This document shows positions 6,386-62,019 of a DNA stretch of 64,000 bases, in pieces. The stretch covers positions 124,001-188,000 of the forward strand of contig JAIXMF010000015.1 of assembly GCA_025201365.1 (NCBI GenBank), written 5' to 3'. The stretch is from Syncephalis plumigaleata. Lineage: Eukaryota; Zoopagomycota; Zoopagomycetes; Zoopagales; Piptocephalidaceae. The notes under the pieces were generated by a model. It saw nothing but the letters and a program-made list of their open reading frames with translations. It ran no database searches and was not told the DNA's origin. The position numbers were made by a program, and so were the translations under genes. Each line of letters opens with the position of its first letter. Positions within the stretch are counted from its first letter, which is position 1.

Positions 6386-7328
6386 CTACGGTAGTTCAAG
6401 CAATTTGGCTCTTCTTTGATATGCATGCTGGCAATAACGTATTAGTATCGTGTTGATTAATACCCTAGATCCTACGTTAGAATATGTTCTTAATGCTGGC
6501 GACTAGTTCCACTCACCAATCTGCTATATAAAGTACGTTAAAGTTTAAGTTATATTTTGTGGAAGTGGATTTTACTATAATACAGCAGGTAATGTTGCAC
6601 AGTGCGGCCAAACACATTATCTGAATACCCTCGCGTGTAAGTCGTTTCCATGCATCCGACTTGTTTCTTTGGTACTGTTTAAAAGCGATACGGCAAAATA
6701 TTGCTGAATACAAAAGGTTAATGGAGAAGGTTGGCGCGAACCAGTACCACACCATGAAATATTGATAATATATGGTGCAGCCCAGTTCCGGTGAAAACAT
6801 GGTAAAAGTAGTGGCTATGGTTACTAAACCATATGATGCTTGCATCAATATAAATGGTGCACTAGCGTATAGTATCCATCTTTTTCTATCTAATACTAGA
6901 TAGGCTTTCTGGAGTAGCAGTAAACAATTGCAAATATTTGCAACCGATACTCCCATTACTAGTGCCCATGTGAGATGACGACAGTTGAAAGAGTACCCAA
7001 GATGTAGAGCTAGAAACATCAATGCTGTTATTACTCCCGTTGAACAAGGTAGGAAGCAGCACCAGGATGCGATGGTGCGCGGTCGTTTAATCACCATTTT
7101 AACGGATCTTAACGTGTTATAAACGAGGATATACGTCAGAAGCACACCGAAACTTATTTGCAATCGACTACCCAATAGCTTGCTGGGCTGGCGAGCCAAA
7201 CTACTATCCTGTGCGTAATAATCGAGTACATTTATTTCACCGAATGGATGCAAGGGTATTCCCAAGAAATACGACGCGTTCTTTACCCATTCCGTATGTG
7301 CGGGATTATCATAATCAATAATGGGCAT
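6386..7328 (-). CDS. Seven-transmembrane GPCR-like protein, copy A
   Basis: Member of a paralogous 7TM family present five times in this window; no named family recognised. Two exons: 7328-6517 and 6464-6386, 296 residues. The 52-nt intron (GTGAGT...CTAG) splits the Trp codon of a conserved Asp-Trp; without splicing the frame stops at once. Layout: extracellular N-terminus (MPIIDYDNPAHTEWVKNAS, with a sequon), TM1 from about residue 55, the TM2 entry RPRTIASWCC, Cys before TM3 (FNCRHLTW), Cys in the TM4-TM5 loop (PELGCTIYYQY), a basic TM6 entry (SDAWKRLTREGIQIMC), TM7 across the splice, and a short tail ending KLLELP. The two cysteines sit where class A GPCRs have their disulfide. There is no DRY motif. 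The tail is about 20 residues shorter than in the other copies. Receptor function is inference. Confidence 0.8.
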
Positions 7329-7540
7329 ATTGTAGTTGGTAGAACGGCAGTACTGATGTTAAACGAAAAGAAATGAACGAACATGGGAAGGTCAAAACAC
7401 GAGTGATAGAGGGACCGCGTTGCAGCGTCGAACAATGGCATTTCATGCATAGGAGCTAGCTGCATATCATGGCATCGTGCAACATTCCATTCTTTCTTCT
7501 TATACCAATCATCGTTATAGAATCAACCTTGTGCCTTTAA

Positions 7541-7897
7541 ATGTACGAGGAATGGAATGCAGCGGATTTGATTCGTGCCATCTTTTTGTTATTAGTTGTA
7601 CTTTACCGCACAAGCCTAGTCATGGCACAAACGATATTGGACGTGTGTAGTAATGGTTCATTTGATAAGCAACTAGGCCTATTTGTATTAAGTAAGGACG
7701 AGTTGTTGTTGCAGCATAATTTAACATTGAATAAAATAACAATTAATGATAAATGCAAGCAATGTTATAGGAATCGAGTGTTTGCCTACATCGATTTACC
7801 ATATGAGTATAACTTAATTAAGATGGCCTATAGGATACAAAATATTGTATTGTGTAATGGTGTAAACATATTTATAATGTTCAACCTTACCATCTAA
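7541..7897 (+). CDS. Small putative secreted or single-anchor protein
   Basis: A 118-codon frame lying divergently between 7TM copies A and B. Residues 9-27 are strongly hydrophobic (IRAIFLLLVVLYRTSLVMA) and look like a signal peptide or anchor, followed by a Cys-containing segment with three potential N-glycosylation sites (NGS, NLT and another NLT-type) and a CKQC pair. I do not recognise it. Length, a clean ATG and the signal-like start favour a real gene, but the AT-rich composition and lack of relatives in the window make chance possible. It could also be one exon of a longer gene. Confidence 0.35.
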   Translation: MYEEWNAADLIRAIFLLLVVLYRTSLVMAQTILDVCSNGSFDKQLGLFVLSKDELLLQHNLTLNKITINDKCKQCYRNRVFAYIDLPYEYNLIKMAYRIQNIVLCNGVNIFIMFNLTI

Positions 7898-7967
7898 CAT
7901 TTATTGTTGAACGATGAATGATTTTAGTAAAAAAGACGTATAAATATAAATGATAGTAAGGGAAATG

Positions 7968-8980
7968 TTACTTCAAATCATCCTTGACGCTAACTGCAGT
8001 GGCAATCTGTGACAAATTCAGTATATACTCGGTTTTCGGTTGATGAGAGCTACTCGTGTTTCTGCTCATGTTCTGGCAATGTCTAAGCAATATTATATTG
8101 ACAATCATCCTATGTATATGTATATGTACGTATTCCGATTAGCGTTCATGTAGTGCCAAGTAATAATCACTTACCAGTCTAAGGGGAAGAAAAGGTCGGC
8201 ATTAGTGCCACCAATTTGTAGGGCTATTGCGGTGCAACAACCAACGTTGCAGAACACAGCCAGGCACATGGTTTGAATACCTTCTTTCGCTAGACGCTTC
8301 CATGCGTCTGAACCATAAAGCTTGTACTGTTTATAGGAGACGTAGCAGAAAATAGACGAGAATATAACATTGAGCGGGACGGTACTTGCGAACCAGTACC
8401 AGATGATGAAATACGGATAATGAATGATGCACCCGTAGTCGGGATCGAGTGTGGCGTAGCAATTGAGCATGATGAAAACGATATAGCAAACCTGCATAAG
8501 CATGAGCGGGATACTAACGTAGATGATCCATTTCTTCCGGTAAAGAACCAAGTATGCTTTCTGAAGTACAATTAATCCATTGCTAAAGTTGGCGATGGAC
8601 ATGCCAAATCCAATTGTCCACACGGTGTCCCGACAATTGAAGACTAGGCCGAGTTGCATCAGTATGGATACGAATGCAGTGATTGATCCCAAGAGTGCGG
8701 TGGTCATGCAACACCATGGTGCGAGGACTCGCGGGCGCTTTATGACCATTTTAGCGGCAACAAAGAAGTTACGTACAATAATGCAGGACATCATTACGTT
8801 AGACACGAGTTGCAGTCGACTGCCGTATAGCTTGCCGCGTTGGTCGGCGATACTCGATGAATCCATGTAAAAGTCGAGTACGCTCATTTCACCGCTTGGA
8901 TGGAGCGGAAGACCCACTACACGACGAGCATCTTTAATCCAAGACGTCTCTCGTGGGTCGGCGGGATCAATGATAGGCAT
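7968..8980 (-). CDS. Seven-transmembrane GPCR-like protein, copy B
   Basis: Second member of the 7TM family, in tandem behind copy A on the same strand. Exon 1 is 8980-8175 (806 nt), intron 8174-8110 (65 nt, GTAAGT...ATAG), exon 2 8109-7968; 315 residues. It shares the MPIID start, LHPSGEMSVLDFY, the TM2 entry RPRVLAPWCC, the pre-TM3 Cys (FNCRDTVW), the loop Cys (PDYGCIIHYPY), the TM6 entry SDAWKRLAKEGIQTMC and the Asp-Trp splice position. The exon 2 tail carries HQPKTEYILNLSQIATAV, closely resembling the tail of copy D. It lacks the N-terminal Asn sequon (KDARR instead of NAS/NAT). Stop TAA at 7968-7970. Likely a plasma-membrane receptor; ligand unknown. Confidence 0.82.
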
Positions 8981-10048
8981 GAATAAGGAGAGCGGGAACT
9001 ATTACACTTTGATGATATATATTTATATATACGTATATTATACTATGATTATTGTAAGAACGGAGACAGTTAAGTAAATAGACAAATAATCAATAAAGTC
9101 AATTATAATAGTATAGTTTGAAGGAGAAGAAGAAAATCGGCATGAACGTTTAGTAGAAATGATTTCAATCTATGCAATCCTGCCTTTGTCTGTGGCAATG
9201 CTATTTATCCTGAGGCTGCCTGCAGTTGGACCAGATGGCACTTGGGATTGGTGCTAAAAACTTGTTTTGACAGCAAGATAAAGGGGAGGAAGTGATATCA
9301 CATGAAGCGTGCCAGTGCCAATGATCATTAAAGGCAAACCAGCTTACTTGACAGGAATACGTCTTGTCCTTCACAAGGTGTCGACTTGAATTGAATGCAA
9401 CTATCTAACCTGATGTTAAATTAGCGTTACTAATTTGGAAATGAACAAGTACGTGGTACTTGAACGTGTGGAGTGCCATACGAAATGTACCGCAGTCGTC
9501 ATAAACGCCAACCTTTATGTCATAAACGAATGCATTTTCATATTATCTGCTATGCTTTCCGTTATAAGATTATGCAAATACTCCTTGGTATACCTGATGT
9601 TATGCCTATTGTTGTATGCATTCCATGCCGATAGCAATTGCTGTTTCCATATATGTATTAGTAAGCATAGTTCAAGTGGTGTTCTATTGATTGAATTCGC
9701 AGAGTTCAGATAATACGAATATGTCTAGATGCATCAAACACGCGGTACTGATGTGTTTCTGATTAGAATAATCTCATATTCTTAGTCTACTCCTTGCCAT
9801 GCAGTTAATTCTTGCACTATAATGCCATACTTATGGCCGTTTCAGCGGAAGATAGTAGGAACTCGACTTGTCATAATAGCATTATGTAGATAGCATATCA
9901 CAGCAAGCATTACTTTCAATAAATTGCAATTGTTACAAAAAAGAGATATTTTACTAGATATTGGAGTTGGAGTTGGCTCCTCACTCACTCGTTCACTCAC
10001 TCGTTCATTTACTCTTTAATTTTTACATTCTTTGCATTTATTTTAGTA
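8981..10048. other. Intergenic with two small signal-peptide-like ORFs
   Basis: About 1.07 kb upstream of 7TM copy B. Two plus-strand ATG frames begin with signal-peptide-like stretches. One starts at 9159 (MISIYAILPLSVAMLFILRL) and closes after 31 codons in TWDWC. The other starts at 9552 (MLSVIRLCKYSLVYLMLCLL, then NCCFHICIS) and ends at 9713. Neither is long enough to call a gene. They may be first exons, remnants, or chance; the ORF at 7541 nearby has the same character. A short ACTC/GTTC-rich stretch lies at about 9975-10015. Confidence 0.3.
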
Positions 10049-10914
10049 ATGCCGAATCCACTACGTGATCCAACTCAACGAGCCTCCATTCTCAAGGGAA
10101 CATTGGGTTTTGGTGTGTGTATATACATGGCAAGAAATAGATGACTTCCGGTTATTTATGTGGTGATTCATATTGACAGGTATTGCCGGAGCAACTATCG
10201 GCGGCTTCTGGTCTCTGGCACGGGGACGTTCTTTCGGGCCGTACACGCTAAGCCTTGCGTTCAACTGCGGCCTAGTTGGCTTCACCTTCCTGGGTAAGAA
10301 GCTTTGATAGTGCTGTAATAGTCGGTGAATTGCAGTTGCGCTAACACGACCACCATAGCCACACGTCGATTCGTGCTGGAGGAGCGACTAGACCGTGGAC
10401 GCGCACTTGGTCAGACCACACCACAGCTGAGAGATGCCGATATGATCGCGGCTAGCACCGTGGCGGGTGGTGCTGCCGGCAGTATCTGGTCGGGTGTCTT
10501 TTGTACGTATATCAATGTAGTATTAGAGCTAGCGTGTTACTCTACTAATGCTGCGTCTGTTAACTATCAGATGGCTCGCAGCGGGTGATTGCTGGATTTC
10601 TGATGTTTGGACTGTTAGCAGGTGGCGTGCAGATGTGTGCCACTGCAGCCAATCATATGCGTCAACAGATCATTCTAAACAAGTTGGATCCAGAACAAGC
10701 ACGGAATCTGCCATTGATCCATATGAAGCATTCGCTTGCAAGTCAATGGTCAGAATTAACAGGCTGGATTGGTGAGAGCCTCGCATGGATTCCCATTCAT
10801 AAATTATCGGCAACCGAGCATCGAGAACTGCTGGAGAAGAGATTAGCTCTCGTTGACATGGAGCTGAATGAGCTTGAGCTTACCATTGCTGACGCTAAAC
10901 CAACTCGAGACTAG
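10049..10914 (+). CDS. TIM17/TIM22/TIM23-like mitochondrial membrane protein
   Basis: Four exons: 10049-10112, 10180-about 10291, 10359-10502, 10571-10914. The product, a little over 200 residues, has small-residue-rich membrane segments with glycine motifs (GIAGATIGGFWS, TVAGGAAGSIWSGVF, VIAGFLMFGLLAGGVQ) typical of the TIM17/22/23 superfamily, separated by a basic loop (ATRRFVLEERLDRGRAL). The C-terminus is hydrophilic and helical (TEHRELLEKRLALVDME). I could not assign it to TIM17, TIM22 or TIM23 proper; it resembles uncharacterised fungal family members of the mitochondrial inner membrane. The first intron starts GTGTGTGT and the third exon begins after ACCATAG. Frame is maintained across all junctions. 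Confidence 0.7.
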
Positions 10915-11641
10915 ATTACAAGTAGCGAATCCCAAATAATTATACAATGTTTAATAAATGACAAAATATCCTGCAAATCTACATGATTTTGTCTAGATTG
11001 TTCTGTCCAACGATATCCAACGATTGCAATTTAGCAGTACAATTGATCATGCGCACATGATAATAGCAACCTTGCTTTTTCTTCTCCTGATAAAACAAAC
11101 AAATATTGTCTATCGTTATGCTTCAACGCCATTCTACTGCCTAATTAGTATATACCTTCATTGTTCAGATCACTGGTGGTGACCTATGTTAACGTGTCCA
11201 CAGAGGTCCGGGCCACCACAAATATGGACGACAATTGGTAGTGTGATTGGATCATAGACACGCTTATTCCACAAGTTTACGCAAAACCCGTATCGTGCGT
11301 GATGCATGTGGAGCTCGGCACATTGCCAGATATCCGGTTGTTGACAACAACATCACGTATGCAGTCTAGTGCATCGGTATGGATTGCTTCGCTATCCAGC
11401 GTCAATGGTATAGTTGTCACGCGTGCGTGTTCTAGAATAGCATTCCGTAATTCTCCTTGAGCATTGTGGCATTACCGCCATTCAGAATGATATAATCCCG
11501 AGCAACACGGTACAGATCTGCATCGATCCATCAATCTGATCCGTATATTGTTTAGTAATAATAATAATAGCACTACATCACCATCATTCTTCTCTTTGAT
11601 CTGTCCCACTGTATTCGCGATATTAGTTCGCATTAGCATTG
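10915..11641. pseudogene. Intergenic with decayed minus-strand coding stretch, family unknown
   Basis: Between the TIM17-like gene and 7TM copy C. On the minus strand at about 11160-11520, protein-like sequence persists but jumps between frames: VARDYIILNGGNATMLKENY, then LRNAILEHARVTTIPLTLDS continuing into EAIHTDALDCIRDVVVNN, then LWNKRVYDPITLPIVVHICG. These runs look like conserved coding sequence rather than noise, yet no single frame spans them. It is either a relic of a host gene or a gene hit by the single-base losses seen elsewhere in the window. I do not recognise the family. Confidence 0.35.
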
Positions 11642-12641
11642 ATGCCCATTATAGATTATCAGAACTCGACAGATACCAAGTGGATAGACAATGCCACCAC
11701 ATATGTCGGGGGATTGCCCCTTCATCCATCAGGTGAGATGAACATGATTGACTTTTACATGACCGAGTACGATCCGAGTAAGCCGTCCAAGCTATCCGGT
11801 AATCGACTTCAACTTGTGACTGGCGTAGTTATGATCTATATTGTCATTGTCAATGTGATCAAGGCATTGAAACTACTGATATCTCGACCGCGTTTGCTTG
11901 CACCGTGGTGTTGCTTTATTCCTTGCATCATGGGCACAATTACCGTTACAGTGTTTACGTTCATGGAATTAGGACTACACTTCACTTGTCGACATCTTGT
12001 TTGGTCGATTTTAGCGGGGATTGCCGTGTCCAATTCCCTTCATAGCATGATCCTAGTACAGAAAGCATATCTTATACTTTGTAAGCAAAAATGGGTCATC
12101 TACATTAGTATCCTGCCTATGCTATGCCAGTTGTCCTACGTGTTCATCATGGTGTGCACCTCTTTCGTCACCACCGTGCCGGATATTGGATGTAGCGTTC
12201 ACTATCCTTATTTTACAATTTGGTTCTGGTTTAGCAACACATTGCCGCTTAACCTGCTATTCTCGGGTATATTCTGCTATGTAGCAGTGGCGCACTATCG
12301 TCGATACGGGACTGATGCATGGAAGCGACTGGCACGGGAGGGCATTCAAATCATGTCATTGATTGCAATATGCAACATCCTGTGCTGTGTTCTACTAATT
12401 ACACAAATAGCCGGGCCAAACACTGATCTCCTTCTTGCCATGGACTGGTGAGTGACAATTGCCATTAGCACACCATAGATTGCTCACTCGAATAACTAGG
12501 ATGCTCACCAGCACCGTGTTGATTAACCATTGCTTGAATATGCGAAAAAACACCACTCATTCCAGCGATACAAGGTCTTCCCATTTGATGGGTGCTACTC
12601 GAATGGAGTCTGCAATATTAACATACAAAGCATTGGAGTAG
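11642..12641 (+). CDS. Seven-transmembrane GPCR-like protein, copy C
   Basis: Third 7TM family member, on the plus strand. Exon 1 is 11642-12447 (806 nt), intron 12448-12499 (52 nt, GTGAGT...CTAG), exon 2 12500-12641; 315 residues. The ATG at 11642 is preferred over an in-frame TTG just upstream because all paralogs start MPI(I/N). Features: N-terminal sequon (WIDNATTY), LHPSGEMNMIDFY, TM2 entry RPRLLAPWCC, pre-TM3 Cys (FTCRHLVW), loop Cys (PDIGCSVHYPYF), TM6 entry TDAWKRLAREGIQIMS. TM7 crosses the splice (LLLAMDW then MLTSTVLINHCLNMRKN), followed by a Ser/Thr-rich cytoplasmic tail. It is closest by eye to copy D. NADAR lies 286 bp downstream in the same direction. Confidence 0.83.
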
Positions 12642-12927
12642 AATAAAAACACATAAACAGTTTGTAATATAATAAAACATTGGCCAGTATGAATACAGGT
12701 TGACTCATTGCTCATCTACACATCATGTCTCCTTTATTGTCTTTTATTTGAACCGGTTAGCCATAATGAACTAACATGTATCACAGTAATGATTATATAA
12801 TTTACGATCATATTGACTCATGCACAATGAGTACACATAAACAAATATAAATAGATAAAAGTAACAGCATATCCCATTCAATAGCTGATCATTATACGTG
12901 CACGCCATTTTATATGCAAAGTTAACA

Positions 12928-13455
12928 ATGACTAGTCCCGTGACAACGCCACTTCCCGTCAATGAAGATGATGGTAGCGCGCATTACAACGCAACTACAC
13001 CTGCCATCTACTTTTACAGGAAGCATCACGAGGTTTACGGACATTTGTCGAATTTCTATCCTGCTGCCATCTACTTGGATGATAATCGCTGGCCCACCAC
13101 CGAGCACTACTTCCAAGCGGCAAAGTTCCCCGATGATCCACAGTATCAAATGGCAATTCGTAACTGCACGACGCCAGGTAAGGCAGCAACGAAAGGAAGA
13201 AGTCGAGCACATCCATTACGCGCAGATTGGGAACAAGTAAAGGAGGAGATCATGGAACGAGCTGTTATGGCCAAGTATACGCAACATAAGGAATTAGCAG
13301 AGCAATTGCTAGCTACGGGTGATGCGCTACTTGTGGAACATACATCGAACGATCGTTACTGGGCTGATGGCGGCGGTAATGGCGCAGGACTGAATCGATT
13401 GGGCGTTATTCTAATGCGAGTTCGTACTCAATTGTCAGCAACATCAAATCATTAA
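12928..13455 (+). CDS. NADAR-domain protein (YbiA-like N-glycosidase)
   Basis: A single-exon gene of about 175 residues, nearly all of it one NADAR domain. Diagnostic segments are the opening YGHLSNFYPAAIYLDD, the central WPTTEHYFQAAKF with the conserved His/Gln, the RSRAHPLRADWEQVK region and the closing YWADGGGNGAGLNRLGVILM. NADAR proteins cleave N-glycosidic bonds: YbiA/RibX-type enzymes remove toxic riboflavin intermediates, and other members remove ADP-ribose from guanine in DNA. Which activity applies here cannot be read from sequence. ATG at 12928 is the first good methionine; an upstream GTG extension is unlikely in a eukaryote. Cytosolic, no targeting signal seen. Confidence 0.9.
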   Translation: MTSPVTTPLPVNEDDGSAHYNATTPAIYFYRKHHEVYGHLSNFYPAAIYLDDNRWPTTEHYFQAAKFPDDPQYQMAIRNCTTPGKAATKGRSRAHPLRADWEQVKEEIMERAVMAKYTQHKELAEQLLATGDALLVEHTSNDRYWADGGGNGAGLNRLGVILMRVRTQLSATSNH

Positions 13456-13627
13456 TTATAGCATAATTATAACATCGTATACAAACAAATCATTCAGTAG
13501 TAACTATTAATAAACATTAGCAATAGCTACACTATTATCTGTATCAATCAATGGATAACTATATTGTTTTAATGAATGAGAAACAAAGCTACACGGCAAT
13601 ACCATTAGCTAATCAATTAGCTAATAT

Positions 13628-14614
13628 CTAATTATCTTTACGATCAGCAATTAATTCTTCTACGTCTTCTTCATCTTCTTCAACAGCAGCAACGCCACTA
13701 CTCTCTACCGGATCAGTGATCTCCTCTAGTAGTGGTGCTGTAGCTGTAGACTTTCCTTTGGCACTCTCACCAGTAGCGTTGGCTGCTGCCGCTCCCGATG
13801 CAGCAGGTCGTTTGCCTTGTTTCTTGGCCGATTCCGCCCATGCCCATAGTGGAATGAACGAGTCGATAAATCCGACATCCTCGTAGAGATTCGGGAAGAT
13901 CCAGATACCCGGTTTGACCAGCACGACCGTGAGTAGATAGAAGATTAGACGCACCACCGTGATGGCCAGTAGTAGACCGAGTAGACCGAGGATCACCATA
14001 CTGAGATACCAGGCACCGTCGCGCATAAACTGCGGCCATAATGGGAACATGACGCCGGCGAATACAATGGCCACTAGGGCGATACCGCCTAGCATGGTGC
14101 CCACTTGTGATCCTTGGTAGAGCCAGGTGTAATAGCTGTCCTCGTCCAGCATTTGAAGCGGATCCGGCTGCAAGGCACGACCACCAGCGGGATGAGCATC
14201 ACCACGATCGCAACGTAAGAAGAATTGATGCATTAGCAGCTGTTCCAGCAGCTTCTCGGCCTCTGAACGATCCGTCACTGGAGGTCCACCCGACTTGGCA
14301 TATTCCTCACGTAGTAAGGCATTGTATGCGCTTTTACCTAAACACAAATGAAAGTCATACATGAGTATTGGTTAGTATAAACCAGCTGTGGTATATATAT
14401 ATATTATACAACGCTCACCCTTAAAGTATTCTACTCGCTTGCCGTTTAGTACGCCTGTACGTGGCTTCAGATTGGATATCTTTTGATTGCGAAGATAATT
14501 TGCTGCTGCAAATAGTTGCTTCGACGGTTTATCTGATTCGGTTGTGTTCTTTGCCTGATAGTTAAGTTGATGAGCTTGTTGAGAATGGCCTCCGCCGCAG
14601 CAATCGTCGGTCAT
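13628..14614 (-). CDS. SEC62: SEC62, ER post-translational translocation subunit
   Basis: SEC62 works with SEC61 and SEC63 to move proteins into the ER after translation. Exon 1 (14614 to about 14419) gives the basic cytosolic N-terminus (AAANYLRNQKISNLKPRTGV, NGKRVEYFKG); exon 2 continues GKSAYNALL, the EAEKLLEQLLMHQFFLRCDR block, and two transmembrane helices at about 150-205 (GGIALVAIVFAGVMFPLWP and YLSMVILGLLGLLLAITVVR), with the conserved GIWIFPNLYEDVGFIDSFIP after the second. The C-terminal tail is Ala/Ser-rich then very acidic (EEDEEDVEEL). One intron of about 75 nt. Convergent with NADAR. Confidence 0.92.
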
Positions 14615-15090
14615 GGTAGAATAAAAAGTAGGAGAGTATCAGTCAGTCAGTCAGTCAGTCAGTCGAATGTAAATGGAACGAAGCTTGAGATTAAGTTAAA
14701 AAAGAAAGGAGATAATCTTATATCTTCATTGATATCCACTGCGTGTTTCATAATTGTGGTGGAGTTCAAAATAAAAATATTAAAACATTTCAACGAATAG
14801 AATGTCGCCACAGCCATTTAACACATCGATCTCAATTAGGTACTTGGCTCGATTCGACTCGAATCTAAAGTATGCCATTACATGTTGATTTGCCAATCAT
14901 TTGTTTACTAACATTGCTCTATGTAGTTACTATTACGCAGTTAACATGCAACTACTTTCGAATAGAATCAGATAGGTAGACATCGATCTATTTATTAGTA
15001 AACAGCAAACATTAAAGGATAAATACGCAAATTGGATGGAAAAACACTGTATTGTATTACTACTAGTATTATTATCATCGTTCTATTGTC
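14615..15090. other. Intergenic with (CAGT)n microsatellite
   Basis: Spacer between the SEC62 start and the HAP5 stop. It holds a perfect CAGT microsatellite of about six units at 14640-14664, inside the likely SEC62 promoter or leader. Otherwise AT-rich; no gene seen. Confidence 0.7.
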
Positions 15091-16147
15091 CTATTGTCCT
15101 GTGCCTGTATACTGGTCAGATCCATCCCGTGGACTTTGTTGGAATTCAGGTACAGGTGGCGGCTGATGGTAATATGGATACGAGGAATAGTCAGTAGTAC
15201 CCGAGGGTTGATTGGGATGTCCGGTAGTTTGCGCAGAAGGTTGTTGTAGCATCTGTGCTTGCATGTATTGTTGTAGCTAATTAAACAATCAGCATTATTT
15301 CTTCTTTTCTTTCGCTTTCACTTACTTGTCCTTGATGCTGTTGCTGTTGCTGTTGCTGCTGTTGATGATAGGCGAATACTGATGGATCAGTGATTGTCTA
15401 AACATACACAATTAGTCATGTATTTGATACTCGTCACTCTTTCTCTCTATTAACTACTTACACCAGCATTATACGAGGGTGTATGCTGCATGCCATAGCC
15501 GTACTGGTAGGCTGTATGTTCTGACGACATCATGCCACGATAATCCTTCTCGGGCGATTTACCCGCTGTACGTAGTATCTCATCGCGAGGTACAATATCA
15601 ATCAGGAAATCAAACATATCCGACTTGGAGATGGCGGTAGCAATGTCACTTCGTTGCAATGTACGACGCTTATTCTCCTCGGCATGAATCCATGCACGCA
15701 TGGTCAATTCACGAATCATAATCTCGCATGCTTTAGCAAATAATATGGGTGCCTACAAAAATGAACAATGTCAACTAATGATCTATACAGCATAGTTATA
15801 GTGGATGCTTACCTCGGCACTAATCATCTATAGTAATCGTAATCGTAATCGTAATCATAATAGCAGCAGTAATGATGGAGATAGTTATTATCATTGTGAT
15901 TGTTTGCTAACTAGTAAATGCTACTTGCCTTGACGTCTTCATCCGCTTTCATCACCTTCTTAATACGGGCCAAAGGCAATTGATGAAACTTAAAGTCATG
16001 ATGCCCGGTTTCTATCTCGGCAATCTGATTAGACCAGAACGCACTCATCAGCTGTTGGTGCTGCTGAGCCAGTTGCTGAGCATGTTGCGAAGAACTGTTG
16101 CTATTCATCGAGTTGGGAGCTGTAGGCGAATGTGGATGTGGATCCAT
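15091..16147 (-). CDS. HAP5: HAP5 / NF-YC, CCAAT-binding factor histone-fold subunit
   Basis: Subunit C of the heterotrimeric CCAAT-binding factor; it pairs with HAP3 through a histone fold. The N-terminus is Ser/Gln-rich, followed by FKFHQLPLARIKKVMKADED, MISAE, APILFAKACEIMIRELTMRA and RRTLQRSDIATAISKSDMFD, the classical NF-YC core. The C-terminus is Gln/Pro/Tyr-rich. The gene is unusual in structure. After the codons for DEDVK the donor is GC (intron 15928-15828, GC-AG). The next exon is only 15 nt (15813-15827, encoding exactly MISAE), and the following donor is GTAAGC. Further exons carry PSYNAG and the Gln-rich tail; stop at 15091-15093. The microexon is required to complete the conserved helix, so it must be spliced in. 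Confidence 0.92.
15813..15827 (-). other. 15-nt microexon of HAP5, preceded by a GC-AG intron
   Basis: Reads ATGATTAGTGCCGAG on the minus strand, five codons MISAE, which are invariant residues of the NF-YC histone fold. It is flanked by ...CTATAG acceptor and GTAAGC donor. The upstream intron begins GCAAGT and contains an imperfect GTAATC repeat (about 15836-15861, plus-strand view) near its 3' end. Confidence 0.85.
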
Positions 16148-17478
16148 GCTATCAATACAGAATGATTATCTAGCAGAAATAATGTTAGCCCAGTACTAAA
16201 GATAAAGTGTAGAACAATAGATTTTATTGCGTGTACACACATATACACACACGAATGGGAACACGCTACTTACCCGTATTGTCGATAATTATATGTAGAA
16301 ATGAAAGAATCAATAAACAAATGTATTAGTACAAAGATGGTGAAGCCTGTCTGTACTAGTTTCGCGCACAATATTTGCCAATCAGTATGGATTCACGCTG
16401 ATCAGGTTGACTGGCAGGTTAGTTAGTTGGCTGGTTAGTTCGTACGTTGAAGCAATGAGGAAATATCAACGATAGTGTGCGCAAGTTAACAACAATAGAC
16501 GAATAGGAGAGAAAGCTTCGACGAATAGGAGGGAAAAGGGTAGATAGGCATTAATTCCGTCATAGGGTTGTTCTACCCAAAGTGAAACTAAGCAGCGTCA
16601 TCATCATAATCATTATAATAAAATGGTCAAATCCATTTGGTAAACACAGCTAGACTAACGAGACATATCACTTATGCATTCTATAACTGCATAGCTATGA
16701 TATAATGACGTTGATATACATTCTATGCGATCAAATATAGACACTAGTGGAATAATCTATTAACATGTAAATGATAAGACTATTGCAACAACGATGGAAC
16801 TTCTTTTCTCAATTATTCGTAATCGTCATTATTGAGTTGTTACACGATTATTCCTGTATCAACATGTTCATTATATACTATAGATGGATAACATTATTGA
16901 ATAGAGTTGTAATTTAAGAACATTGCTATCATCTCACTTGATGGCGATTGAGTGGATTACATCGTTTAACTGGTGTTTGCTAATTGTAATATTCTACATG
17001 ATTTCAACTCTCATATTGTATTATATCATACATCATAGCGTGCTATTAGAGTAGGAAAAAAGCGGAGAACAATATACATTGATGTTATTGGCATAGAACA
17101 GGTAGAGCAAGAGTGAAAAACGATAAAATAGTAATCGTGTTCATGCTTTCCTTCATCCACGAGGCTTGTAATCGTATTAGCGACACGTGTACTACACGCT
17201 AATTAACAAATCCAGCACTACGAGAAATAGAAAAATACCCATCTGCTCATTGTAGACTTGTAAACTACGACAGAAAGAAAAAGCGGGAAAAACGCACACA
17301 TTACAACGACTGCTTAAACGGGAATGTTCCATGTTTAGTATCGTTCTGAATGATGTCAAGTGGTATTGTGCCATTTCCGGCACACCTATACACATGTCAT
17401 TGGCGGTGAGATGCACGGCAGACATAAAAGTGCCAGCTGACAAGGGAGCTGCACCATTCCGTAACACCAATCCGCATA
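16148..17478. other. Long intergenic region, no gene seen
   Basis: About 1.3 kb upstream of both HAP5 and APP1, so it should hold two divergent promoters and leaders. I see AT-rich sequence, no long frame with family features, no tRNA and no mobile element. Confidence 0.5.
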
Positions 17479-19563
17479 ATGACAAAGGCTGGACAACCTA
17501 CACGACAATTATCACGACTTGATGGACGTTGCCACCATCGCCGCCGCTACCGTCTTCACTTTCGCTTCCGCAGCCTTCTTTCCACTATCGTCCTATTCGT
17601 TTTTTCTATTCTATTCTTCGCTATGACTCAGGAACTCGTTGAGAATACGCAAGCAGAAGCTGCAGTTCTGCAAACACAAAAAATGTTGACTACTACCACG
17701 ACGACGCAGCTCGCTGGTAAAGATAGTGAAACGACCACGACCACCACCACCACCGCTCATACGGAAATCAATGTAACATCCTCAGTAACGGTGATTACAG
17801 AGGAGGATCTCGATAAGCCGAGTAAACTGTATAAACAATGTCTACTATTCCCTAGTTATGCCTACTGGAGTTCTCGAGTTGGTAAGTTCGTTTTTCTTTC
17901 ACTCTAAATTGCGTAGTTTATCATCAATGTCAATATTTACATTATGATTGATGGTTCAATTAGAGGATGGCGAGAATGATGCCGGCGAATGGACGATCAG
18001 AATCAATGGCTGGATCTTTGGATTCCCCAAGAAAAGTAATCGTCGTCGATTGGCACTAGGCAAGTGTGGTTTGATGGATAAATCATTTATTACACACAAT
18101 AATGGCATGTTCTAATTCATACGTTAATTCATTCAATTAGGTATTGCTCGTTTACTAAGTGGTCTCAGTAGTACCGATGAGCATTATGCGCATTTTGAAC
18201 GACGTACACGCATGTTCTTCGCCGTGGATACACCCGATGTACCCGTGCGTGTTCAAGCAATTGGTGTCACCACACCTGAAAAGTTCGAACTGGACGGTGA
18301 TCCGGCTGATCACATCTACAGCGAGGGATGTGGGCCTGATTGCAGCGATAGCGATAGTAGTAGCGGTTCGTCCAAGAAGAAGACGGACTTGGCATTCACG
18401 CGTAAGAAGTTGCCACCACTACCAGTGCCGGAGAATGCACCCTCCATGGAACTTCTCGCGGAATCAGGCTATCTACGCGGACATTTACGTATCGACGGGA
18501 TATAGTGAAGGAATGGCACGCTGCCAGTGATCATAGTAAGGATCGTACTCTCCTTAAATTGCAAGCTTTCTTTACCGGTGAACCCGAAAGGCCCACTAGC
18601 GGTGTGGTGAATCTCATCAGTCCACACGGCATCTCGTGATATCCGACATTGACGACACCATCAAGATGACAGGCATCCTACAGGGTGTGAAGACTGTACT
18701 GAACAACACATTCTTCAAAAAGACCAACGACGTGCCCGGTATGGCGGATGTCTACAACGAATGGTATAAAAAGGGCGTGGCATTCCATTACGTGAGCAAC
18801 GGACCATGGCAACTCTACCCCATGCTTGACCAATTCTTCCGGATCATCGCTTCCCTCCCGGTGCCGCTCATCTTCGTATGTACGACGGTATCTCGGCCGT
18901 GTTGCAAGATCAACCGGGTCAAACGAAACAGGATCGTATTATGATATTTTCAACGACTTTCCGCATCGACGCTTCATCCTGGTTGGTGACTCGGGCGAGA
19001 AGGATCCCGAAGTCTACGCCGAGATTGCTCGTCGCTTCCCCGATCGTGTTGCCTGCATATTTATTCATGATGTTACAACGCCGATGTTACTCGAGCAAGT
19101 ACAAGCGAAATTGGAGACTACCATTCATGGCGACAACAGCACGAAGACGACCACGGAAGGCGAGAATGGCGCGGAAGTGAAGCGTGATGTGCCCAAGCAA
19201 CCCGAAGGCTTCATCCAACGTATCCACACGCGTCTTGGCGACCTTAAGAACCAATTCCACAAAGATATCCATGATGGCTCGGAAACGGTGGGCGATCTGT
19301 TCGACTGGGTCGACAATAAGACGGACACGGCGCAAGACGAGCTTAGCATCAAGGTTGACGAGCTTGCCCAGTCTAGTCGTAAAGCATTGCTGGAATTCCG
19401 TCAGCGTATTCATGAGGTGTTCGACGGTCTCAAGGATTGGCGTTTGTTCATGGAGGCACGCGAGATGTTGTCGCACGAGAAAATACACTCGGTATTCGAA
19501 AGCCAATCTGTTGCGCAAGCAGAAGCGCAAGAACCAGCAGTGAAGGCAGATCCGTTACATTAA
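17479..19563 (+). CDS. APP1: APP1-type phosphatidate phosphatase (DUF2183)
   Basis: Mg-dependent phosphatidate phosphatase of the HAD superfamily, known in yeast from cortical actin patches and endocytosis. Recognisable parts: KLYKQCLLFPSYAYW and EWTIRINGWIFGFPKKSNRR at the family N-terminus, the catalytic VISDIDDTIKMTG (the DxDxT loop), GMADVYNEWYKKGVAFHYVS, WQLYPMLDQFF, FPPGAAHLRMYDG, and HRRFILVGDSGEKDPEVYAE with the late HAD acidic motif. A Thr-rich stretch precedes the domain and an N-terminal hydrophobic run suggests an anchor; the true start is uncertain (17479 or the ATG near 17623). Reading the conserved domain needs four frame changes, near 18500, 18635, 18848 and 18938, each equal to one missing base, with no other damage. 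I read these as assembly errors, not a pseudogene. Confidence 0.85.
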
Positions 19564-20204
19564 ACGAAACGAACAGATGAACACACATACTATTGTTTAA
19601 TACTTGTTAACGCGTAAAGTAGTATTTTGTAGCAGATGATAATAATAATATCCGCTTACTATTTTATCCTCAATAAATCATTACTCTAGCCATTGAAATG
19701 CATGGCACTTTTTGCTTATCACACATGTAGATGGCACACTAAGATGATAGATAAATGGTCATTTATATTGTATAATAGAAGCATGTTGAGATCAAATCGA
19801 AGCTATACTTCTAATCTATGACTGAGGACATATATTCAATTAATGATTGAATGATGATCTTGTAGATATATTTCTTGTACCAAGGAATAATGACTTGAAT
19901 GGCATGGATAGACAGATAAGTTGACTAGAACGAGAATGAAAGTAGTAGATAGTAGCTAGAGTAGAGTAGAGAAGAGCGAGTATGAAGATATGTATGACAG
20001 GTATCAAGGAGGAAATCGTAAAATTTAAATAGGTAGTCTTCTTATGACGCCAAACCTTTTGTTATGATATTTTTTGAGTTTTATTTATTTAGTTTTTCTT
20101 ACAATGTACGCGAATGACACGTTAACATCGCAAGAAAGCGATTTAGTCAATAAAGGTAGGCAATAGTTGGTGGATAGCACGCTGCACCGAGTAGATATAT
20201 AACT
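19564..20204. other. Intergenic, no gene seen
   Basis: AT-rich spacer between the APP1 stop and the Myb-like start, with GAGTAGA-type short repeats at about 19940-19985. Nothing else recognised. Confidence 0.5.
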
Positions 20205-21780
20205 ATGAACTATTACGAACTAGAAAACCATGGTTTATCAGAGTATGAACGACAACGCCAGGAGAATATTGCAAGGAATCAGGCAATGCTTAAAGCATTA
20301 GATATTGAGTCACTGGTGCCTAATGACCTAAACGACGTGAATACAACTTCTAATGTAGTTGATAAGGGTAGAAAGTAAGTTGTATTGTTGTTTCTACTGC
20401 AATATCTTATGAGTACCATGTATAACTGACGTGGATATATGGAATAAAGGAAGAAACAACCGCGTACCACGACACCGTCTAATGGTAAGTAAGATGAAAT
20501 AAACATTTATAATGACTACAATAACTAATAACTAATAGCTAATGCTACACCACGACGTGTATCGGCACGTTTAAGAGGTGATGCCCCCGCTGTAATACCA
20601 TTAAGTACCGACGGATCAGCGGAGCCAGATATACCGGCAATCAATTATGTGGTAGGTATATCGGTATTATTGACTTGCACCTCTTTATTGTATTGCTAAT
20701 ATACATTAGACTGATGACTTGACAGGTATACTACTTACCGCGGATCAATATTTCGATGAGGAAACAAAAGCTACCGCATTACGTGTTGATGGTCATTTCT
20801 CTGGTAAGTTACCAATCTATCTATCTATCTATCTATCTATTGTTATGCTATCATGCAAGCTGTGTACTAACTATTGTAATATGTACACATGTAGGCTGGG
20901 TTAACAAGGATATGATTGAGAAATATGGATTGGAAGCGAATGCGGCAGATGCATGGAAGAACAACGGTGGTGGCACGTTTTCTTATCGAGATCCATCGGG
21001 CTCTGCTGGATGTAATGTAGACTGTGCTTACTATTACATACTAAATGATAGCTAATATCTATTCTGTAATGAAAATAGCTAGTAGTATGCGTAAATTGGG
21101 ACGAAAAGTAATGGGCAACATTAAGGAAGCGAAACTCATAGCCAAAATGCTATTTAGAAAGAATCCCAATGCATACTTTTACCGACACAATGAACCAGGC
21201 GAGGTAATTAGCCGATTAATACTAGTAAATATCGTGTCATTTAATGTATATATATATATATTATAGGAACAATGGACAGGTGATTGGAGTCAAGAGGAAG
21301 AGGATCTATTTGTTCAGGTATAAGCAATGCCAATTTGATATGTGATGACAATATGTAATGCTTACCATTTCACTACTCGTAGATTGCAAGAGAATACGGA
21401 TGTGGTGATAAGGTAGGGCTCATCTACATTGATGATGCTTGACTAGTTAGTTAACTGACTAATCAATGATGTCTAGTGGGGATTATTCGCCAGTTACATT
21501 CCTCATCGAGTAGGCTATCAGTGCAGGTAAGCATGCTATTACGTAGATATTGTATAATTGAGAGTAACCATGACTAAAACATAAATACAACGCAGTAACC
21601 ATTATAGACAAGTTATTTACCATCTGGACGTATTATCGATCCAAATTACAAGGCAAGTAAAAGCTATATTAGTATATGTGTGCACTATTATCTAATACAT
21701 CATATAGTTCACATCACGCGGACAAGCTATATACGTTGGATTGCACGGACGATCAAAGAGAGTTGAATAATCTCGTAATT
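20205..21780 (+). CDS. Myb/SANT-like DNA-binding protein
   Basis: Multi-exon gene starting MNYYELENHGLSEYERQRQE. The N-terminus is low in known motifs, then RRVSARLRG. The C-terminal half holds the recognisable part: NPNAYFYRHNEPGE, EQWTGDWSQEEEDLFVQ, IAREYGCGDK, WGLFASYIPHRVGYQCSNHY, a single Myb/SANT repeat with three spaced aromatic residues. A fungal and protist family carries this 'YRHNEPGEEQWTGDW' signature; its target is not known to me. IAREYGCGDK is a 30-nt exon (21383-21412). The last intron (21656-21710) is GC-AG, and the end reads GQAIYVGLHGRSKRVE. Reaching that end requires one missing base near 21620 (T run), where the frame should read LPSGRIIDPNYK. A TCTA repeat lies in an intron. 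Nuclear regulator by inference. Confidence 0.72.
20816..20840. repeat. (TCTA)n microsatellite in an intron
   Basis: Six uninterrupted TCTA units directly after the donor of an intron in the Myb-like gene. Confidence 0.9.
21656..21710 (+). other. GC-AG intron in the Myb-like gene
   Basis: Exon ends AATTACAAG, the donor is GCAAGT and the acceptor CATATAG. Using it joins IIDPNYK to FTSRGQAIYVGLHG in frame. Same extended donor (AG|GCAAGT) as in HAP5 and SNAPC3. Confidence 0.75.
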
Positions 21781-21989
21781 TAATAAACATTCTATTATTT
21801 ATTTATCGTAATGAGTATGAAATAAAACATAGGAGAAAATACGCGTGATTGTTTTTTATTTATCTATTTTCTATTAACACTGTTTACTTTATTTATTTGC
21901 GTGATTCAACTACTAAATTCAACAGTAAGTATTCAATAGATTGGAATACTGACTAGATTACAAGCAATAACACTAGTATATACCAACAG

Positions 21990-23781
21990 TTAGACGCTAA
22001 TGACAATAAACGAGCACACACCACTACTGTCACTAATGGCAAGAAATCTCATTTACTGGTAAGTAAATATGGAATTGACTGAATTACCATAGATATAGTA
22101 GCTAATAATACCTTGAGAATAGCTAGACCATTTCAGCCACGAGTGACACTTGGTAAAACGCGTGTATATAATGTAGACCTTGGTGATAAAACAAACCATG
22201 ACATGTCATCAACAGTATCAGGTAAGCGACATTAGATAAGCGTGTAGTTATAGCTTAACATTTGACTAGAGACGACATCATTTACGGATCATGTACAGCT
22301 ACCAATAGCAACTTGCAAGTTGACAATACCAAAAAGTACGTTTATTAATATGTAATTGAATGAATGAATAATAAATGAATGAATGATAGATGAGACCATT
22401 GTACGTCAATATCTGTCATCGATGGAGACAGTAGGCCAATGAGTTCAACTAATAAAGAGAAGTGGAAACCACACTAGTAGGACAGTTTCGATTAATGTAA
22501 GTACTAGTAGCATTATTTATTATATATTCGATGACTAATACATGTTGTGATGCTAGTCATTCTAGAGTGGCAGTATCGTTGATTGAAGAATGCATGAATA
22601 GTTGCAAACAATTGACATTACAAAAGATAACAGCATCCAATTATACGGCAATCGAGAAGATTAATCGACCAGATTATGGTGCTTCTTCTTTTATACCGAA
22701 AGAACCCAATCGTGAATGGATGTTACTGGCAGTGGTGGCACAGCGAGGATCTGTGATTACTGATCATGAAGGAAATAAATCCATCACACTTGTATTGACT
22801 GATCTCAAATACAGTCAATGTCGTTTAACGTTGTTTGATGCCGCATTGGATGCACACTGGAAGACAGCACCTGGAAGTGTAGTGGCCGTGTTCAATGCAA
22901 ACTATTTGAATCCAATGCTAAGGTACGAATCTGCTTAATTATAATCAATAATACACATGATAACTAATTAATGTTGCTGCTTCTTTTGTTATTTATTTAT
23001 TATTAGATGGGTCTATCTATTTCACGATTGGAATGCCTGCTTAATATCGGTGACTGTATTGATTTCAGCATGTGTATTGCGGCAAATAAGGATGGAAGCA
23101 AGTGTAGGATGCCCGTTGACAAGTAAGAAGAAGTGCTGTTTATCGATGATTGATTGCTAACTGGTATGCCGTAAATAATAGAAGAAGGGTACGAAATGCG
23201 AGTGGCATTGTATCGAGGGAGTCAAACGAAGTATCTCTCGTCGAATGGAAATTGCTGTCGGGTAAGTGCATATTGACTAGTTTTGTTGCTGCTGCATCCT
23301 TTAGTTTAATCGATCAATTATGTTACATAGTGATGTCAGTATGCAAGTACCAAGCTCAAGTTTTGACAATAATAAGGATAGTAGCGCTGTCAATACGTAT
23401 CAATCAAGCAATTATTATGAGGCTACTCCATTTGGACGTGCGTCTAAACTGTCATCTAAAGCATTGCAAGAGAGACAAAAGTCTGAATCAAGATGAGGTA
23501 AATAGAAAAGACAAGATGAAATCACATATCAAATGCCTGTCTAATCATTGATATTGGTAGTGCTTTGCTTAAACAACATAATAACTTGGGTGGTATTTAT
23601 CTACAAAGTGCTATTGCCACACATAATGAACGTAAAAAGATCAAGCTTGCTCAAGAGGAAGAAGCATCCGCTAATCTTGCTAAGAATAATACGAGTAATG
23701 AACGAGAAAACCACGAGTAAAGAAGAGTGCACTTGCTATACTGGAGAATGCAAAGGGCCGTCCAGTAGACAAGGAATTGTA
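21990..23781 (+). CDS. MCM10: MCM10, replication initiation factor
   Basis: MCM10 binds the MCM2-7 helicase, polymerase alpha and DNA during origin firing. Visible exons: LDANDNKRAHTTTVTNGKKS, RPFQPRVTLGKTRVYNVDLG, then the OB-fold in one long exon (EWMLLAVVAQRGSV, ITLVLTDLKYSQCRLTLFD, WKTAPGSVVAVFNANYLNPM). The MCM10 zinc region follows: MGLSISRLECLLNIGDCIDF, MCIAANKDGSKCRMPVDK and GTKCEWHC. Later exons encode FGRASKLSSKALQERQ, DIGSALLKQHNNLGG and a C-terminal KPRVKKSALAILENAKGRPV. One base appears to be missing near 23706, since the last segment is one frame off. The start is not determined; the coordinate given is the first exon I trust. The gene lies close behind the Myb-like gene on the same strand. 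Confidence 0.8.
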
Positions 23782-24011
23782 GAAATATTATTATTATTAT
23801 TCACATTGATTCTTACCAGTAATTACAAGTAAAATTAGATTGGCATGTGTAACAACATTTATTCAGTTGTATTATAATTTCATATTTAAGTGTTACTGTA
23901 TTCACTTGTAATTACATTGAGGAATAGTAATAACAGTATAGCTATTAAGGTATTACGCATAGAGTGGATGTGGCACGATATCAATGGCATACTGGTAACG
24001 ATAATAGTCGA

Positions 24012-25052
24012 CTATGGCTGATAATCATAGGATGCAATCGTTTGAATCTGTGAAAGGTGAAGTATATGATATGTCTTTGGTTGATTGGACACACCGGTTG
24101 ATTTACGCATATCCTGACAATGATTTACCAAGATAGTACTGACGATATTCCTAGTTACACACACACAAGTACAAACACAAGTACAATGCGTTAATGAATG
24201 TAAACAAATAGATGAGCACGCGTTGATTTTCATCATGATTACTTACCAGTCTGTGGCCAGTAGCAAATCAGATAGATTCCCGGCAATCTGTGTCGCCACG
24301 AGTGTGCAACATATGACATTGCACACCGCAGCTAAACACATTGCCTGGATTCCATCTCGTGCCAATCGCTTCCATGCACTTGATCCATACTGGCGGTATT
24401 GTTTTATCGCGACATAGGAGAAAATGATGGAAAACATCAGGTTAAGCGGTAGGGAAATGGCGAACCAAATCCAAATGGTATAGTAAGGATAATGGAGGGA
24501 GCAGCCGACATCCGGTTCTATCGTTACGAAACATGTGAAAACCATCACGAACACGTATGATAATTGCATCAGCATAGGCAGAACACTAATGTATAGCACC
24601 AGTCTGTTTCGATACAATATGAGATATACTTTTTGTAGCAATACGGCACTATTAAAGAAGTTGGCCGTAGATATACCAAAGCAGATCAACCAGATCAAAT
24701 GTCGACAGGTGAAATAGAGGCCTAGTTCGACGAGTATGAATACCACGACAGTGATACCACCGATTGAGCATGGAATTAGGCAACACCACGGAGCGAGAAT
24801 ACGCGGGCGTGCCCTTACCATTTGAACGCAAATGATAATATTACGTACGGTTAGAAAGGCCATGATGATACCCGCCAGTATTTGAAATCTAGCACCGTTC
24901 AATCCGCTGTAGTGCTCGCCCGAATGTCCCTCCGCCACATAATAGTCTAGCATGTTCGTTTCACCGAGCGGGTGCAAGGCTATCCCCCATAGCTGTGTGG
25001 CATTCTTTGTCCACTCTGTTTCCTTTGGATTAGCATAGTTGATCGCCGGCAT
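24012..25052 (-). CDS. Seven-transmembrane GPCR-like protein, copy D
   Basis: Fourth intact 7TM family member. Exon 1 is 25052-24247 (806 nt, the same length as in copies B and C), intron 24246-24151 (96 nt, GTAAGT...CTAG), exon 2 24150-24012; 314 residues. Shared features: MPAINYANPKETEWTKNATQ with a sequon, LHPLGETNMLDYY, TM2 entry RPRILAPWCC, pre-TM3 Cys (FTCRHLIW), loop Cys (PDVGCSLHYPYY), TM6 entry SSAWKRLARDGIQAMC. TM7 crosses the splice (LLLATDW then NIVSTILVNHCQDMRKS), and the tail NQPKTYHILHLSQIQTIA matches copy B. An in-frame TAA 15 nt upstream of the ATG supports this start. Ligand and coupling unknown. Confidence 0.83.
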
Positions 25053-55944: not shown

Positions 55945-56333
55945 ATCAATCTACCATCATGTCCTTTACTGATCAATAAATTCAGCTGTTGACCCACCTT
56001 GAATTATTGTTATGATAATTGACGATAGTGTTATAAGATGTATTCTAACGATATTTACATACAATTAGCGAATACGATAGAAGAGACGATTTATCGTATG
56101 ACTCATTAAAAAATCGTAACTTACATGGATTTCTCCATCTGATTAACATAGTCAGCCTTTTTGTTTTTACGAATAAATAATAGATAGGTTAACACTTACG
56201 TATTTAGTTGTAAAAGCGATAATCCTCAACTGCTAGGGCCATGACAACTACTCAATAATAATAGCAATGCGATAATGATGTTAACAATTGAATAGATTAT
56301 TGATTAATATATATTTATTATAAGACTAGTACA
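55945..56333. other. Intergenic, AT-rich
   Basis: 390 bp between convergent genes; holds an AATAAA-like 3' end signal soon after the thymosin stop (about 55975). No gene seen. Confidence 0.5.
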
Positions 56334-60957: not shown

Positions 60958-61462
60958 GATGACATGATGATATCTTGATCATTTGGTTGCAAGTATGAAC
61001 ATGACTACACTCACGATATTGACAAAGTGTTTCATGATAATAAAATCAATAGCTCCTAAATGACATAATGAACAACATCAGGAATGTGGAATGTATCCTA
61101 ATAACAGTAAAAACTCTTTGGTATAAAATACAATTGAACATTTTACCTATTCCATTGTACCTGGCACTCTGAGATGTCCCTAACTGCTGCATCACATGTA
61201 TGTCTTTCTCATTGGTGTCTTGATTCTCCAATCCACTCGACAAAGGTTATACAAGATTTATACATAATCCAAACTGGTTTCTATTCATTTATAACGAGAA
61301 AGAAGGCCACCTCGGTTAGTCCTATTATTGTGTAGCTCAAGCCAGCAATATATAGTTATATAATAGACGCGTGTGCACATCCATTTCCTTCCCTTCTCTA
61401 TTCTATTCTGTTCCGTTTTATCTTGTACAACACCCATTTATATCATATCTACTATCCTACCA
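60958..61462. other. Intergenic, no gene seen
   Basis: About 500 bp, AT-rich, between the ProRS stop and the 7TM relic. The last 80 bp are C/T-rich (TTCCTTCCCTTCTC), similar in texture to the leaders of other 7TM copies. Confidence 0.45.
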
Positions 61463-61800
61463 ATGCCTATTATTAATTACAACAATCCAAAGAGTACAGA
61501 ATGGATAAGCAATGTCACCTATTTCGGCATCATTCCACTCCATCCAGATGGAGAAATGAACATGCTTGATTATTACATAGGTGGCGGCAATATGACAAGG
61601 TAACGCAACCGATTTGCTGGTAATGTGCCTCAGCTTATTTGTGCCGAAGTATCGACATATGCAATCCTATATAAAGTCATACTATCATACAAGATGGTTA
61701 TGCATCGACCAAGGCAACTTGCGCCATGGTGTTGTTTGAGTGCCTCCACAATGTGTGCCGCCACACTTGTAGCAATTATGACAAGTCTTCTTGGATAACT
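61463..61800 (+). pseudogene. 7TM GPCR-like family, copy E, truncated relic
   Basis: Starts exactly like the intact copies (MPIINYNNPKSTEWISNVTY with the N-terminal sequon, then LHPDGEMNMLDYYIGG), reaches an in-frame TAA at 61601-61603, and continues in the same frame through TM1 and the hallmark TM2 entry (MVMHRPRQLAPWCCLSAS) to a second stop near 61795. Nothing corresponding to TM3-TM7 or the second exon follows; NUFIP1 begins 220 bp later on the other strand. A cryptic 30-nt intron hiding the first stop is conceivable but would still leave a two-helix fragment. Dead by truncation, with modest divergence, so probably a fairly recent loss. Confidence 0.8.
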
Positions 61801-62019
61801 CACTGAAATCACCCATATGTGATCTGTTATTATCCATCTTACATAGTCATGATCAATTCTAATCGCGTAAAAACAGCTTATAATCGACATCGACATTACC
61901 AATCATGTATAACACTCAAAACGACTAAATAAACATATTTATATCTATTCTAATGCCAATTCTAATCCAACTCAAATACAACTTTTCTATAATACACACG
62001 CATTAATTCGAGCGATCAA

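Follow-up and report, generated by a model that had tools for sequence, protein, structure and literature searches.

Fungi are thought to possess few G-protein-coupled receptors (GPCRs). The Pth11-like receptors of the Pezizomycotina (fungal class 14) form a lineage-specific expansion of seven-helix receptors, for which older counts are in some species higher than the range given below. A recent survey sorts fungal GPCRs into 17 classes by Pfam domain, with 1–40 Pth11-like receptors per genome; for the ten largest seven-helix clusters left without a class it inspected which Pfam domains they contain, and it tested the largest, DUF6534 (Liu et al. 2025, PMC12842992). There, the DUF6534 proteins of the Agaricomycotina appear as lineage-specific fungal putative GPCRs outside the known GPCR domains (PMC12842992). 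Here we describe a family of seven-helix proteins, four copies of which (A–D) lie together with a relic (E) in a 64-kb stretch, hereafter the window, on contig C57 of the 32.6-Mb assembly of Syncephalis plumigaleata (Zoopagales, Piptocephalidaceae). This species is an obligate mycoparasite, a fungus parasitic on other fungi. In Trichoderma mycoparasites, receptors at the cell surface, together with G proteins, have been suggested to sense host signals (PMC3100592, PMC3664084).

Like the Pth11-like receptors and the DUF6534 proteins, the family is lineage-specific and fungal. However, it does not match the class 14 Pfam domain, and the DUF6534 proteins belong to another phylum and carry a Pfam domain that no scanned member matches. 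We consider it likely that the family forms a clade within the GPCR superfamily that is specific to the Zoopagales, with about a hundred loci in S. plumigaleata, and that it would detect diverse cues by the ligand, lock and G-alpha mechanism proposed below. The receptor-like interpretation put forward in an earlier note on this DNA, which was made from the letters alone, is supported.

Predicted fold and likeness to known receptor classes

Membership in the GPCR superfamily rests on the predicted fold and a cysteine pair. For each of two divergent members, AlphaFold (AF2) predicts a seven-helix receptor with good confidence (predicted local distance difference test, pLDDT, 87.8 and 84.3), and for each model all 50 of the Foldseek matches listed are GPCRs, both models being of family members. 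The cysteines at the top of transmembrane helix (TM) 3 (C116) and in extracellular loop (ECL) 2 (C184) are properly placed as a pair in the predicted model. They are present in 102/102 and 103/103 sequences of a set made non-redundant at 95% (103 sequences), and in 129/129 and 130/130 once the Thamnocephalis relatives are added (130 sequences).

Pfam and NCBIfam scans of the members identified no family, but only scattered one-member matches below cut-off. For PF00001 (7tm_1), none of 43 members gave a match at E ≤ 10 and none of 26 at E ≤ 1, and the genome gave none at E ≤ 1. Among the scanned members there was also no match to PF00003 (7tm_3), to DUF6534, or to any Table 1 domain of fungal GPCR classes 1–17 in the survey (PMC12842992). 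In agreement with the earlier note, which had proposed a GPCR-like seven-helix fold without a match to Ste2, Ste3, Gpr1, cAMP-receptor-like or class C receptors, the predicted fold is of that kind, and neither a receptor class nor a transporter or enzyme family was found above cut-off in these scans. A match of TIGR04162 to the member P0036 (E 1.4e-4) was rejected because its score of 21 bits falls well short of the cut-off, 150. A sequence search of the PDB gave no match for copy D, and a PDB search with the family profile returned one ribosomal-protein match (E 0.14), which was also rejected. Because no Pfam model exists for the family, it is missed by domain-based surveys.

These proteins could instead be divergent class A (rhodopsin-type) GPCRs, forming one family with the 7tm_1 receptors of other early-diverging fungi but with eroded signatures, which we regard as possible, if rather unlikely. 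Homologues of 7tm_1 are reported in early-diverging fungi by Liu et al. 2025 (PMC12842992), and all 50 Foldseek matches listed for the divergent-subfamily member are class A. The likeness comprises the predicted fold, the probable outside position of the N-terminus, the TM3–ECL2 cysteine pair and the ECL2 hairpin, in addition to a conserved Asn in TM1 (N71, 122/129) and Pro in TM5 (P202, 114/130), which may correspond to 1.50 and 5.50. A basic residue (K/R) stands 25 positions after the TM3 cysteine in 101/103 and 128/130 sequences (R in 21/130), while the flanking helix columns 134–139 and 142–146 are basic in ≤1% of sequences and column 140 in 11%. In class A, the same spacing of 25 residues separates 3.25 from 3.50. 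The claim of the earlier note that there is no DRY is thus true letter by letter, but overlooks this basic residue and the E-R at Cys+24/+25 of 11/130 sequences; where class A has D-R-Y, the family has mostly Q-K-A-Y and in a few cases E-R-A-Y, and its conserved Tyr sits at Cys+27, not +26. Against class A membership stand the missing PF00001 matches, the very short intracellular loops (ICLs) and the equally good match of class C receptors to the models by VIA. In addition, the deposited protein P0001, taken as a single sequence, has no NPxxY, CWxP, TM2 Asp or TM6 Pro. Since several class A marks fail, we do not file the family as class A.

The family also differs from class C (mGlu, CaSR, GABA-B; PF00003), as the N-terminus of ~50 residues in the model contains no large ligand-binding domain, no Pfam match is present, and the Cys-to-basic spacing is 25. 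In class C, the corresponding Cys-to-Lys spacing is ~21.

The motifs listed in the earlier note proved to be features of the family. In the 103-sequence set, W89 occurs in 98/103, C90 and C91 each in 89/103, W227 in 102/102, and the Asp-Trp of TM7 as D268 in 95/100 and W269 in 88/96, but the LHPxGE box is less strictly conserved (H27 58/95, G30 84/99).

Relatives and size of the family

Protein searches returned 20 proteins with a single sequence, 43 with a first profile and 33 with a second profile that included Thamnocephalis. All relatives with an organism label come from S. plumigaleata, S. fuscata, S. pseudoplumigaleata or Thamnocephalis sphaerospora (Sigmoideomycetaceae), the others being metagenome proteins and P0004, which is the window's own. 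As far as word-based searches reach, every named relative therefore falls within one fungal order, as expected for the confinement to one clade suggested earlier. Profile searches gave no match in Piptocephalis, but absence is not shown by this because the method requires shared 5-residue words. A quick, midpoint-rooted tree of 130 sequences divides the 19 members from Thamnocephalis among six groups, of which the biggest comprises 12 (support 0.75); this suggests that the family is older than the split of Syncephalis and Thamnocephalis and expanded afterwards in both lineages. The deposited model of the Thamnocephalis protein P0049 (605 residues) carries a Cys-containing N-terminal part of ~250 residues ahead of the seven-helix domain, which is either a fusion or an error of the gene model.

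The description of the family as unrecognised in the earlier note has to be qualified. We found no paper describing it among the open-access matches listed, and none that combines Syncephalis with 'G protein-coupled receptor' or Thamnocephalis with GPCR. The UniProt names of a few members (P0014, P0036, P0044, P0052, P0070, P0072), however, already begin with '7TM GPCR serpent', 'G-protein couple' or 'G protein-coupled r'. Among the matches listed, one paper names S. plumigaleata, reportedly a phylogeny study (PMC7865070). A paper of 2018 treats single cells of S. pseudoplumigaleata and T. sphaerospora, but the word 'receptor' does not occur in its main text (PMC6784888), and 'Zoopag' and 'Syncephalis' are absent from the main text of Liu et al. 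2025 (PMC12842992), whose unclassified clusters may hold this family unnamed.

For the genome search, exon 1 of copy D and four other members served as queries, with 142 matches for copy D and 128, 126, 145 and 144 for the others. Merged at 150 bases and without short second-exon matches, they amount to 155 match places including fragments, of which 97 fall on the 18 contigs that reach 200 kb and 58 on other contigs, to which C12, C23, C52, C159, C189 and C233 (one place each, size unseen) were assigned; these counts are lower bounds because only the best candidates are scored. Counting fetched frames with 190 residues or more, large contigs carry 66 (65 of which are distinct at 95% identity) and small contigs 50. 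Since 33 of the latter share 95% identity or more with a large-contig copy, the small-contig copies are in part haplotypes; the near-identical ones are probably alternative haplotypes, as with C38/C57 or C43/C46. The remaining 17 have no such partner among the fetched large-contig frames, although some likely partners were unfetched. In total, the fetched loci comprise 81 distinct frames, of which 77 stay open between TM1 and the Asp of TM7, again lower bounds because the fetched set lacks ~26 of the 155 places. A haploid set thus contains about a hundred loci of the family, and the earlier extrapolation from the window to hundreds genome-wide overshoots, given 97 places on large contigs and 155 in total with fragments and haplotype copies. 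The high density in the window reflects local clustering; on contig C46, 19 family places were counted.

A subfamily starting with MPVIDY(N/S)NPDD or nearly so (L059, L061, L062, L063, L067, L069, L073, L099, L100) is spread over many contigs at ~74–96% identity, which suggests recent dispersed rather than tandem duplication. Relics and stop-containing frames are present among the family copies, as is typical of birth-and-death receptor families. In 49 paralogue pairs of 70–97% identity, which share members and probably include some alleles, the ratio of nonsynonymous to synonymous substitution rates (dN/dS) was below 1 throughout (median 0.435, maximum 0.759).

Topology, proposed mechanism and alternatives

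The share of Lys and Arg is 31% in the ICLs vs. 3% in the ECLs, which by the charge rule favours an outside position of the N-terminus. An N-terminal glycosylation sequon is present in 55/91 sequences, a count without a computed chance rate. Mean conservation is higher in the inner than in the outer helix halves (0.501 vs. 0.394; Mann–Whitney p 3.5e-6, a guide only because neighbouring columns are not independent), and the ECLs are least conserved (0.344) in spite of their invariant cysteine. Such an inner-conserved and outer-variable pattern should be expected where receptors for many different ligands act through a single transducer. Purely by analogy, it resembles the olfactory receptors of animals and the chemoreceptors of nematodes, in which clustered and dispersed copies, and relics beside intact genes, are found as well; unlike these, the present family is fungal.

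We propose that a ligand pocket lies beneath the ECL2 hairpin and would differ between paralogues, and that ligand binding would release a lock between K/R141 at the foot of TM3 and D/E233 at the start of TM6, whereupon the shared inner face could activate a G-alpha subunit. An acidic residue at 233, in the first turns of TM6, co-occurs with the basic residue at 141 in 94/102 sequences. Ionic locks are known in class A and class C receptors, and this pair could be their counterpart. The family is probably chemosensory as a working hypothesis, and its most likely use would be the sensing of diverse cues, for example host-fungus products, nutrients or mating signals. Some observations weigh against this proposal. 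Asn replaces the acidic residue at 233 in 7 of the 19 Thamnocephalis sequences, the outer side holds 13 of the 30 most conserved positions, and for the first model (pLDDT 87.8) the Foldseek matches listed are weak, none reaching E ≤ 0.001.

Seven helices alone do not prove signalling, and the UniProt name of the Thamnocephalis protein P0060 begins with 'Chitin synthase exp', so that non-signalling proteins such as a Chs7-type export chaperone of the endoplasmic reticulum or a membrane scaffold have to be considered. We judge this improbable: P0060 has no Pfam family at E ≤ 10, while the Chs7-type chaperone domain is presumably present in Pfam, ~100 divergent copies with variable outer halves would be ill-suited to a chaperone, and the ECL2 hairpin with its invariant cysteine pair is receptor-like. 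A retinal-type photoreceptor or pump family (microbial rhodopsins) is very improbable, since P0001 has no TM7 Lys before residue 285, the only TM7 Lys of P0036 follows the conserved Asp at a distance of 14 residues and thus lies close to the inner end, and an invariant extracellular cysteine pair is not known as a feature of rhodopsin pumps.

If the family is indeed a receptor clade of the GPCR superfamily, its ~100 members suggest a large chemical-sensing repertoire of a kind unexpected for fungi and would place this mycoparasite among the larger fungal receptor repertoires. More tentatively, and with slightly less than even confidence, we propose that zoopagalean mycoparasites evolved ~100 chemoreceptor genes independently of animals, from a GPCR lineage not found elsewhere and with a switch of its own (TM3 K/R, TM6 D/E, TM7 Asp-Trp), for finding and recognising host fungi. 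A family of this size would also make host finding by obligate mycoparasites directly testable.

Genes of the window and G-protein components of the genome

Copies A–D and relic E are real: the spliced ends of A–D coincide with those given in the earlier note, and the E-values in Table 1 exclude chance similarity. The observation of that note, a receptor-like family in this window, is confirmed. The short GT-AG introns of A–D all break the Trp codon following the conserved TM7 Asp. The deposited gene models P0021 and P0001 agree with copies B and D, and copy D is identical to the deposited S. plumigaleata protein BDF22DRAFT_778046.

Table 1. Family members in the window (E-values on contig C57 with exon 1 of copy D as query; aa, amino acids)
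Feature	Position	Strand	E-value	Remarks
Copy A exon 1	6517..7328	-	6.0e-82	open frame, TM1 to start of TM7; match C57:130516-131334
Copy A exon 2	6386..6464	-		inferred splice, intron of 52 bases; remainder of TM7 and short tail; total 296 aa
Copy B exon 1	8175..8980	-	9.2e-93	open frame; deposited model P0021
Copy B exon 2	7968..8109	-		intron of 65 bases; tail present in P0021; total 315 aa
Copy C exon 1	11642..12447	+	1.2e-102	open frame
Copy C exon 2	12500..12641	+		inferred splice, intron of 52 bases; total 315 aa
Copy D exon 1	24247..25052	-		open frame; deposited model P0001
Copy D exon 2	24012..24150	-		intron of 96 bases; tail present in P0001; total 314 aa
Relic E	61460..61831	+	1.4e-22	pseudogene, C57:185460-185831, query 3-126; N-terminus to about start of TM3; in-frame stops, one TGA and two TAA

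A G-protein pathway is present in the genome, and its link to the family is one that we infer. G-alpha matches above cut-off occur at two C340 loci, near 1.096 and 1.108 Mb, and recur on C257, and RGS matches number 26, haplotype copies included. There are six cAMP-receptor-like matches on two contigs; three of the Dicty_CAR type are clustered at C112:864463-876645 and repeated on C231. Of ten 7tm_3 matches one is above cut-off. At C12:17602-19230, C1:2987576-2989204 and C46:518287-519792 (frames of 597, 597 and 574 aa) 7tm_3 and RGS matches coincide, and these frames are probable class C-like fusions of a seven-helix receptor with RGS. At C351:319498-321273 and C140:15212-16972 an RGS match lies ~0.7 kb or less from a copy of the family, in each case on the other strand. 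Within the window, positions 56001-58000 exhibit a strong strand bias (GC skew -0.25, AT skew -0.19).

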